Source: an uncultured Bacilli bacterium (GTDB lineage Bacteria; Bacillota_I; Bacilli_A; RF39; UBA660). Taken from it: 39,393 nt of DNA. Made by a program: the position numbers and the translations under genes. The notes under the pieces were generated by a model, which did not search any database, had not been told where the DNA came from, and was given only the letters and a program-made list of their open reading frames with translations. Positions 1-26,272 of this stretch are shown piece after piece; the stretch's first letter is position 1, and every line of letters begins with the position of its first letter. The DNA lies in NCBI GenBank assembly GCA_947598485.1, contig CANQFJ010000016.1, forward strand, positions 1 through 39,393, written 5' to 3'.

Positions 1-878
<878 letters not shown>

Positions 879-24186: not shown

Positions 24187-24198
24187 GTTCTCTTTTTT
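24172..24198 (+). terminator. Bidirectional terminator between acyltransferase gene and aspS
   Basis: AAAAAGAG / CTCTTTTT stem (24172-24179 and 24190-24197) with a ten-base loop. T-runs on both strands let it serve the convergent genes; it contains the acyltransferase stop codon. Confidence 0.6.
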
Positions 24199-25951
24199 AG
24201 TCATCAGTTTGAATAGCAAGGCCAAGTTCATCTAATTGTTCATCGGATAGCACGTTAGGAGATCCCATCATCAAATCTTGACCACTAGCACTGGTTGGGA
24301 ATGCTTGAACTTCTCTTAAGTTTGGTTCATCTAAAAGAAGCATTAAGATTCTATCAATTCCCGGAGCCATTCCACCATGAGGAGGGCAACCATATTCAAA
24401 GGCTGTAATAATAGATTTAAACTTTTCTTTAACCTCCTGTCTAGTATAACCTACGATTTCAAAACCTTTGATAAGACTTTCAACATCATTATTTCTAATA
24501 GCTCCTGAAGCCATCTCATTACCATTACATACAAAGTCATATTGATAAGCTAGTATTTCCTCAGGATTTTTTTCTTCATAATCCTTTATACCACCATGAG
24601 GCATACTAAAAGGGTTATGACAAAATTCTAATTTTCTGGTCTTTTCATTATATTCAAACATTGGGAAATCATTAATAATGCATAATTCTAAACGATCTTT
24701 ATCAATAAGGTTACACTTGTTTCCAAGTTCTATTCTAATTAAGCCGGCATACTTTTGAGCTACTTTTTTATCTCTATTAGCGATAAAGAACATTACGGAA
24801 TCGGCCTTCATATCAAACTTTTTAATTAAGTCATCTCGCTCTTTATCAGTTAAAAACTTATCAATAGGGCCTTTTAAAGAACCATCTTCCATTAAAGTTA
24901 CATAACCAATTCCTGGCATTCCTATACTTGAGGCATAATCAACGATTTCATTGAACCAAGAGTTAGAGTTTTTACCAATATTATCTACAACTATTACTTT
25001 TATACAAGAATTTTTAAATGGCCCAAAGGTTGTATCTTTTAATACTTCACTAGCATCTTTAATAATCAATGGGTTTCTTAAATCCGGTTTATCTGTTCCA
25101 TAATCTTCCATGGCGTCTTTATAGGCAATTCTTCTAAAAGGTCGAGGTGATACTTTCTTATCTGAGAATTTAGTAAATGTATCATAAAAGATTGCTTCTC
25201 CTATACTAATAACATCTTCTTCGGTTACAAAACTCATTTCTAAATCTAGTTGATAAAACTCTAAAGTTCTATCTGCTCTAGCATCTTCATCTCTAAAGCA
25301 TGGAGCTATTTGAAAATATTTCTCTACTCCTCCGACCATCAATAGTTCTTTATATATCTGAGGAGCCTGAGGAAGAGCATAAAACTTACCCTTAAATAAT
25401 CTAGATGGAACAACAAAATCTCTTGCTCCCTCGGGACTTGAGGCTGTCAAAATGGGTGTTTGAACTTCCATAAAACCTAAATCATACATTTTGTTCCTTA
25501 AGAAATGTAATACTTGAGATCTTAGTTCTAAATTGCTTTTAACTTTCTTATTACGCATATCTAAATAGCGATATTTAAGTCTTACATCTTCTTTAGTATT
25601 TTTAGAGTTTATAATTTCAAAAGGTAACTCACTTTTAGATTTACCTAATAATTCTAAAGTATCTACAAGTAGCTCTATTTCACCAGTTTTAATCTTGGGG
25701 TTATAAGTTTCCTCATCTCTTTTTCTAATTATGCCACTTACTTTAATGACGCTTTCCTTACTTAAACCTTTAAAGATACTATCATCGTTACTTACTACTT
25801 GTAATACTTCAGTGTTATCTCTTAAATCTAAGAAAAGGACACCACCATGGTCTCTTATTGTTTCAATCCAGCCAGAGACTGTAACTGTTTCACCCACTTT
25901 AGAGATATCTAAATCTTTGCAATAGTGAGTGTGATAAATGTTTTCTTTCAT
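24197..25951 (-). CDS. aspS: Aspartyl-tRNA synthetase, probably non-discriminating (Asp/Asn)
   Basis: 584 residues, bacterial-type AspRS: OB-fold anticodon domain (about 1-110), class II motif 2 FRDEDARADRTLEF, a GAD insertion (about 290-410), and motif 3 GMAPGIDRILMLLL. It attaches Asp to tRNA-Asp. In the anticodon domain the segment IRDHGG carries His35. Non-discriminating bacterial enzymes such as the P. aeruginosa one have His there, and discriminating ones such as E. coli have Leu. With the Asn-codon T-box upstream this suggests it also charges tRNA-Asn with Asp for GatCAB. That is an inference. GGAAGGAT precedes the ATG. Confidence 0.96.
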   Translation of the reverse strand: MKENIYHTHYCKDLDISKVGETVTVSGWIETIRDHGGVLFLDLRDNTEVLQVVSNDDSIFKGLSKESVIKVSGIIRKRDEETYNPKIKTGEIELLVDTLELLGKSKSELPFEIINSKNTKEDVRLKYRYLDMRNKKVKSNLELRSQVLHFLRNKMYDLGFMEVQTPILTASSPEGARDFVVPSRLFKGKFYALPQAPQIYKELLMVGGVEKYFQIAPCFRDEDARADRTLEFYQLDLEMSFVTEEDVISIGEAIFYDTFTKFSDKKVSPRPFRRIAYKDAMEDYGTDKPDLRNPLIIKDASEVLKDTTFGPFKNSCIKVIVVDNIGKNSNSWFNEIVDYASSIGMPGIGYVTLMEDGSLKGPIDKFLTDKERDDLIKKFDMKADSVMFFIANRDKKVAQKYAGLIRIELGNKCNLIDKDRLELCIINDFPMFEYNEKTRKLEFCHNPFSMPHGGIKDYEEKNPEEILAYQYDFVCNGNEMASGAIRNNDVESLIKGFEIVGYTRQEVKEKFKSIITAFEYGCPPHGGMAPGIDRILMLLLDEPNLREVQAFPTSASGQDLMMGSPNVLSDEQLDELGLAIQTDD

Positions 25952-25965
25952 AAATCCTTCCTAAC

Positions 25966-26006
25966 ATAAAAACCCGTACCATCCTATATAAGGACGAATA
26001 CGGGTT
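25966..26006 (-). terminator. T-box attenuator hairpin before aspS
   Basis: AACCCGTA / TACGGGTT stem (25971-25978 and 25999-26006) with an inner TCCT/AGGA pair and a T-run at 25968-25972 on the minus strand; the 5' arm begins right after the T-box sequence and is exclusive with the antiterminator. Confidence 0.9.
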
Positions 26007-26240
26007 CGTGGTGCCACCTTACTTTATTACTAAGTTATTAACTTTATTTTAGTAATCTCTTTTCTGCTCAATCAAGCATAGCAACATGATAACGGGTTGC
26101 TTTCCGAATTAGTCTACTAAGAAAAAATCTTTTCGGTAATTAGCTCCAGGGTGTTCTTTCACAAAATATTTATAACTAGTTCTCACTATACCTAGCTCAC
26201 TTATATAAATAATAATGTTACTTTTCCCTTTCAAAGCACT
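25966..26240 (-). promoter_or_regulatory. T-box riboswitch leader of aspS, Asn specifier
   Basis: The leader has AAGGTGGCACCACG (26007-26020), the T-box element that pairs with the uncharged tRNA acceptor end, followed by the terminator. Stem I has a base helix with AGGG and GCTTT pairing with CCCTGGAGC. Its 3' loop reads GAAAG-AAC-A directly before CCC. The layout GAAAG-codon-A-helix matches the B. subtilis glyQS leader (GAAAGGCA, specifier GGC), so the specifier is AAC, Asn. No GAC or GAT occurs in Stem I. Uncharged tRNA-Asn should thus raise aspS expression. Confidence 0.88.
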
Positions 26241-26243
26241 TTC

Positions 26244-26272
26244 ATTTTATCATTATATGAAAGGCTTGTCAA
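26244..26272 (-). promoter_or_regulatory. Promoter of the T-box aspS transcript
   Basis: TTGACA at 26267-26272, 17-base spacer, TAAAAT at 26244-26249. The -35 lies directly after the stop codon of the upstream acyltransferase gene. Confidence 0.8.

Follow-up and report, generated by a model that had tools for sequence, protein, structure and literature searches.

Introduction

In Clostridium acetobutylicum, a T-box specific for tRNA-Asn precedes an operon encoding an aspartyl-tRNA synthetase (AspRS) and GatCAB (Saad et al. 2012 JBC; 2013 PNAS; as recounted in PMC4206432 and PMC4052509), and one of the three aspS genes of this species is listed as T-box regulated (Wels et al. 2008, PMC2494555). 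Second synthetases of this kind are also described elsewhere. Thermus and Deinococcus possess an extra, archaeal-type AspRS beside AsnRS and GatCAB and have no asparagine synthetase (PMC4206432), and the GluRS1/GluRS2 pair of Helicobacter pylori comprises a cognate and an amide-tRNA mischarging enzyme (PMC9976931). With respect to tRNA choice, bacterial GatCAB is reported to need the U1-A72 pair in tRNA-Asn, a pair found in all 186 surveyed genera having GatCAB as the sole route (PMC4206432), and G1-C72 and U20a of tRNA-Asp are antideterminants for GatCAB (PMC9976931).

Here we analyse a T-box upstream of an AspRS gene, named aspS2, of an uncultured bacterium belonging to the Bacilli. The gene is located on a stretch of 39,393 nucleotides, hereafter the window, which is contig 16 of an assembly of 1.26 Mb (96.6% complete). 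A partial 16S rRNA gene lies at the contig edge (window positions 1-877, minus strand).

Results

A complete T-box with an asparagine codon is located upstream of aspS2

A search with Rfam cmscan revealed a full T-box (RF00230) at 26243-25987 that spans the entire model, positions 1-219, with a score well above the gathering score of 93 bits. It is one of 11 T-boxes found in the whole genome. The initial annotation had assigned a T-box to positions 25966-26240 and named no strand; the T-box plus its terminator are indeed present there, and they are on the minus strand. The features of the region are as follows.

25987..26243, minus strand: T-box leader RF00230, whole model (110.8 bits, E 7.8e-24)
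26146..26243, minus strand: Stem I, including the AGUA bulge and the distal loop (cmscan alignment, sequence)
26153..26155, minus strand: AAC specifier codon for Asn; next on its 3′ side are A and CCCU, a strand of the basal helix (cmscan alignment)
25993..26024, minus strand: antiterminator with T-box bulge UGGC (cmscan; tRNA-Asn ends in GCCA)
~25967..26005, minus strand: intrinsic terminator, with hairpin ACCCGUA...UACGGGU and then UUUUU (minimum-energy fold)
26244..26272, minus strand: putative promoter TTGACA-17-TAAAAT, its -10 preceded by TG (consensus bases at 11 of 12 positions)
24197..25951, minus strand: aspS2, bacterial-type AspRS of 584 aa; residue 35, in IRDHGG, is His (TIGR00459, PRK00476, translation)

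The putative promoter, which is sigma-70-like and was called by consensus match only, ends at 26244. The terminator hairpin overlaps the 3′ side of the antiterminator, so these are competing structures. A simple terminator scan of the leader missed the hairpin that is apparent in the minimum-energy fold. The hairpin and its five U residues are followed by a ribosome-binding site and the ATG start codon at 25951.

In the cmscan alignment the specifier columns are occupied by AAC, in agreement with the initial proposal that this T-box preceding an AspRS gene reads an Asn codon. The specifier loop reads GUGAAAG-AAC-A-CCCU; on its 3′ side, UGUGAAAG-AAC-A-CCCU, the CCCU strand pairs with AGGG, the 5′ strand, in AAAGGGAAAAGUA. 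Reading of Stem I revealed neither GAC nor GAU, as had been claimed, and the same loop had been lined up with GAAAGGCA, given as a glyQS sequence. GAAAGAACACCC was found at a single place in the window, 26149-26160, while 0.07 copies are expected allowing one mismatch. Application of the same position rule to four other T-boxes of the genome gave UUC for pheS, AUC for ileS, UCU for serS and ACU for thrS. The rule is thus calibrated, since these Phe, Ile, Ser and Thr codons agree with the synthetase genes concerned. In the metS T-box of this genome (L024 1039-1220, contig C9), the specifier columns align with UGG (Trp) and not with AUG; that element lacks the AGUA and GAA motifs, and its specifier loop is possibly degenerate or non-standard.

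The AAC codon matches a tRNA of the genome, in which one tRNA-Asn(GUU) was found. The variable C of the UGGC bulge fits the G73 (G73-CCA) of this tRNA; tRNA-Asp likewise has G73, and this match therefore cannot discriminate between the two.

AspRS2 is an additional AspRS in a genome that also encodes AsnRS and GatCAB

The aspS2 product scored 595.6 bits against TIGR00459 and 713.4 bits against PRK00476, above cutoff and over full domains. Hence, the assignment of the gene as encoding an AspRS stands, but it does not encode the only AspRS of this cell, as the genome contains a second bacterial-type gene, aspS1. This gene forms part of an operon hisS-x-asnS-aspS1-gatC-gatA-gatB, and its product has Met at the position of His35. 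Residue His35 of AspRS2 corresponds to the anticodon-domain His of solved enzymes annotated as Asp/Asn ligases, whereas Leu occupies this position in the T. thermophilus Asp ligase. As the initial annotation had noted for the IRDHGG segment, the same His is found in the non-discriminating enzyme of P. aeruginosa, where it is H31. The residue facing G82 of the latter enzyme is Glu and not Gly in AspRS2, according to a hand alignment; taken at face value, this weak test would count against a non-discriminating enzyme. Judged by its sequence, AspRS2 may be either non-discriminating or dedicated to tRNA-Asn.

The initial annotation had explained the Asn codon by formation of Asn-tRNA via the indirect route through GatCAB. 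GatCAB is present: GatB is encoded by a single gene beside those for GatC and GatA, and scores above the NCBIfam cutoff, with GatA and GatC slightly below theirs. However, AsnRS is also complete (a strong equivalog match of 624.6 bits versus a cutoff of 414). The window gene is thus an extra AspRS and a direct route to Asn-tRNA exists as well, so that the indirect route is unneeded for Asn-tRNA as such. Model searches of the 96.6% complete genome gave no match for AsnA or for AsnB, although positive controls elsewhere were matched. This absence suggests that the likely purpose of aspS2 is production of asparagine itself. One LysRS gene was found, and a single gene of the GluRS/GlnRS family, which implies that there is no separate GlnRS. 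In the genome-wide T-box search none was detected at the asnS-aspS1-gatCAB operon; among the AspRS, AsnRS and GatCAB genes, aspS2 is therefore the only one visibly under tRNA-Asn control here.

Most relatives have aspS2 linked to gatCAB

We surveyed 145 genomes of the same family, 56 of which were taken to carry the AspRS lineage of aspS2. The public loci come from metagenome-assembled, host-associated Bacilli that are uncultured and mainly from the gut, including Candidatus Coprovivens. In the fetched loci of most relatives aspS2 is linked to gatCAB, and the layouts are T-box-gatC-gatA-gatB-[asnS]-aspS2, T-box-aspS2-gatC-gatA-gatB, or forms led by hisS. The nearest relatives (97-82% identity) have an AAC T-box before aspS2 and no adjoining gatC on the stretch fetched. 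Another AspRS, being of bacterial type 1, of archaeal type or a Leu paralogue, was present in 44 of 47 relatives having the His enzyme (a hand tally, in which two archaeal-type enzymes were checked). Dedication of AspRS2 to tRNA-Asn is consequently possible, and both options stay.

Some layouts combine two AspRS genes. In L224, L225, L035 and L036 a gene for an archaeal-type AspRS (NCBIfam aspartate--tRNA(Asn) ligase) immediately precedes aspS2, which is of bacterial type, and both share an operon with gatCAB. Genome G094 (L223 4213-7741) has a tandem of AspRS genes of one lineage, the Leu type followed by the His type, which lies between T-box-hisS and gatCAB; it looks as though an AspRS had been duplicated and the two tRNA roles divided.

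The specifier codon and the tRNA-reading residue changed together

Comparison with other aspS T-boxes, which the initial annotation had proposed as a check, bore out the Asn codon and its association with the His residue. Among leaders with a readable Stem I, the specifier was AAC in about 83 distinct ones upstream of operons encoding a His-type enzyme (76 assigned by pattern and 7 by eye), and GAC was found in all four readable leaders before Leu-only genes (L221, L236, L237 and L239), counts that are phylogenetically non-independent owing to shared descent. In leaders with an extra A before the helix, AAC was read from the GAA side and the gene context, not from the helix alone. The automated Stem I codon ACA in some leaders was wrong, as an extra A precedes the helix, and was corrected by eye; GGTGGNACC motifs inside genes gave spurious Stem I calls, which were likewise checked by eye.

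All 105 relatives that are gat-linked or AAC-linked have His at position 35, and 16 other members have Leu. In a tree built without column 35, seven Leu enzymes form a clade that lies within the His enzymes (support of the enclosing node 1.0, local support of the nearest node 0.65). This clade accounts for three of the four GAC leaders, and its genomes have AsnRS. As the Leu clade is nested and the column itself was left out of the tree, the sequences indicate that the specifier codon and the tRNA-reading residue changed jointly, at least once in the reverse direction. In contrast to the window genome, genome G007 of the same genus carries a GAC T-box (L239 2899-3079) upstream of a gene for a Leu-type AspRS; G007 also encodes AsnRS.

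tRNA-Asn has G1-C72 and is itself preceded by T-boxes in a subgroup

The sole tRNA-Asn found in the genome (L062 1117-1192, contig C30) starts with G1-C72, and hence does not follow the U1-A72 rule for bacterial GatCAB; tRNA-Gln of the same genome has U1-A72. All tRNA-Asn seen across the family start with G1, and about 40 tRNA-Asn genes of relatives have G1-C72. Such a tRNA-Asn also occurs in 17 genomes without detected AsnRS, all of the surveyed genomes being metagenome assemblies in which genes may be missing. For three of these 17 (G094, G105 and G051) no archaeal-type enzyme was listed either. AsnRS was not found in G094, which was fetched as a whole genome. As the tRNA set of G094 is incomplete and two AsnB-like matches are present, this genome backs the point only in part. 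The tRNA-Asp of the source genome has extra D-loop bases, which are a possible alternative signal for GatCAB.

About twenty relatives have tRNA-Asn genes, from one to five of them, directly between the AAC T-box and gatC. These T-box-tRNA-Asn-gatC loci are L079 (444-1373), L065, L077, L177, L183-L188, L193 and L196, and further L198-L202, L207, L210, L214 and L232. In L079, the five tRNA genes are followed by another AAC T-box. The terminator U-run is kept in the leaders of L079, L210, L214 and L196, and is unclear or absent in others. If the T-box controls these tRNA-Asn genes, it would regulate its own ligand. No report of T-boxes before tRNA genes was found in the literature searched, which leaves out most subscription journals.

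The use of G1-C72 tRNA-Asn in asparagine synthesis would mean that GatCAB tells Asp-tRNA-Asn from Asp-tRNA-Asp without U1-A72. We give even odds to the view that the family synthesises asparagine on G1-C72 tRNA-Asn, with GatCAB discriminating without U1-A72, perhaps by means of a dedicated AspRS2, and with a T-box controlling tRNA-Asn in a subgroup.

Discussion

The T-box and its codon, the gene set, and the coupled change of codon and residue can be read directly from the sequences; from these we infer tRNA charging by AspRS2, amidation by GatCAB and regulation by the leader. The leader would act as a transcription-attenuating T-box that binds tRNA-Asn via AAC:GUU. Uncharged tRNA-Asn would stabilise the antiterminator and allow transcription to proceed into aspS2, and with charged tRNA-Asn the terminator would stay. 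AspRS2, as a non-discriminating or tRNA-Asn-dedicated enzyme, would then aspartylate tRNA-Asn, and GatCAB would amidate the resulting Asp-tRNA-Asn. In this way, asparagine shortage would turn on asparagine production, while AsnRS would use asparagine taken up from outside. Since no AsnA or AsnB was found, the tRNA-based route is the only recognisable asparagine synthesis in this genome. We estimate the probability that the AAC T-box switches on AspRS2 for tRNA-dependent asparagine synthesis when asparagine is short at about 0.83. The conflict with the GatCAB rule counts against this mechanism, as the sole tRNA-Asn has G1-C72 whereas U1-A72 is reported to be necessary.

It is possible, though doubtful, that AspRS2 is a mere backup to AsnRS for making Asn-tRNA, and that asparagine is taken from the gut and not synthesised. 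The host-associated life of the relatives and a complete AsnRS, encoded together with GatCAB and AspRS1, would fit such a role; against it stand the lack of AsnA and AsnB and the expectation that AspRS2 and GatCAB together would provide asparagine too. The two readings in fact overlap. We regard it as highly improbable that AspRS2 is an ordinary discriminating AspRS with a drifted or borrowed AAC T-box, tRNA-Asn serving as a loose signal of nitrogen or amino acid shortage. The gene does fall in the bacterial AspRS family, and T-boxes can change specificity during evolution. However, conservation of AAC in His-type leaders and confinement of GAC to Leu-type enzymes argue against drift, as do the linkage to gatCAB in most relatives and the presence of another AspRS in the genome.

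The T-box of C. acetobutylicum is said to read two overlapping codons, for Asn and Glu. An analogous reading, in which the specifier loop holds GAA (Glu) as well as AAC and the leader also senses tRNA-Glu, seems unlikely for the window. G does precede AAC in the window and its nearest relatives (GAAAGAACA or GAACGAACA), but an overlapping GAA occurs in just about a third of the leaders. The bases between GAA and AAC in 76 leaders were T (25), A (24), AG (17), G (8), C (1) and CG (1). Because the base before AAC varies, the family as a whole does not share an overlapping GAA codon; the subgroup of the window does have it.

The comparison has implications beyond this locus. A riboswitch codon can reveal for which tRNA the controlled enzyme is specific, AAC going with His-type and GAC with Leu-type enzymes, with a reversal inside the tree, and this coupling provides a sequence-only test for AspRS annotation. 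In addition, the rule by which bacterial GatCAB selects its tRNA becomes directly testable, given that genomes without detectable AsnRS contain G1-C72 tRNA-Asn.

Compared with canonical aminoacyl-tRNA synthetase T-boxes (RF00230), the leader shares all structural parts, the terminator layout and the order of codon, A and basal helix, but its codon is that of the tRNA that the enzyme would mischarge and not of the amino acid giving the enzyme its name. Unlike the second AspRS of Thermus and Deinococcus, for which PMC4206432 describes no T-box, AspRS2 is of bacterial type and T-box controlled; the extra AspRS beside AsnRS and GatCAB and the lack of asparagine synthetase are common to both. The H. 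pylori pair likewise divides two synthetases over cognate and amide tRNAs, with Glu/Gln in place of Asp/Asn, and dedication of AspRS2 is only suggested by the second AspRS in most relatives. The arrangement in the window is of the kind already known from Clostridium. In both, as far as the C. acetobutylicum system is recounted in the sources cited above, the genome encodes AsnRS, and a tRNA-Asn T-box before an additional AspRS gene forms the control point of tRNA-dependent asparagine synthesis, for the window a probable one. The C. acetobutylicum T-box drives AspRS and GatCAB jointly, an operon form also found in relatives of the window; in the window itself, by contrast, aspS2 stands alone with the single GatCAB encoded elsewhere, and no asparagine synthetase was found in its genome. 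The Clostridium case is thereby extended to a large uncultured group, and to an extra AspRS that is controlled alone.
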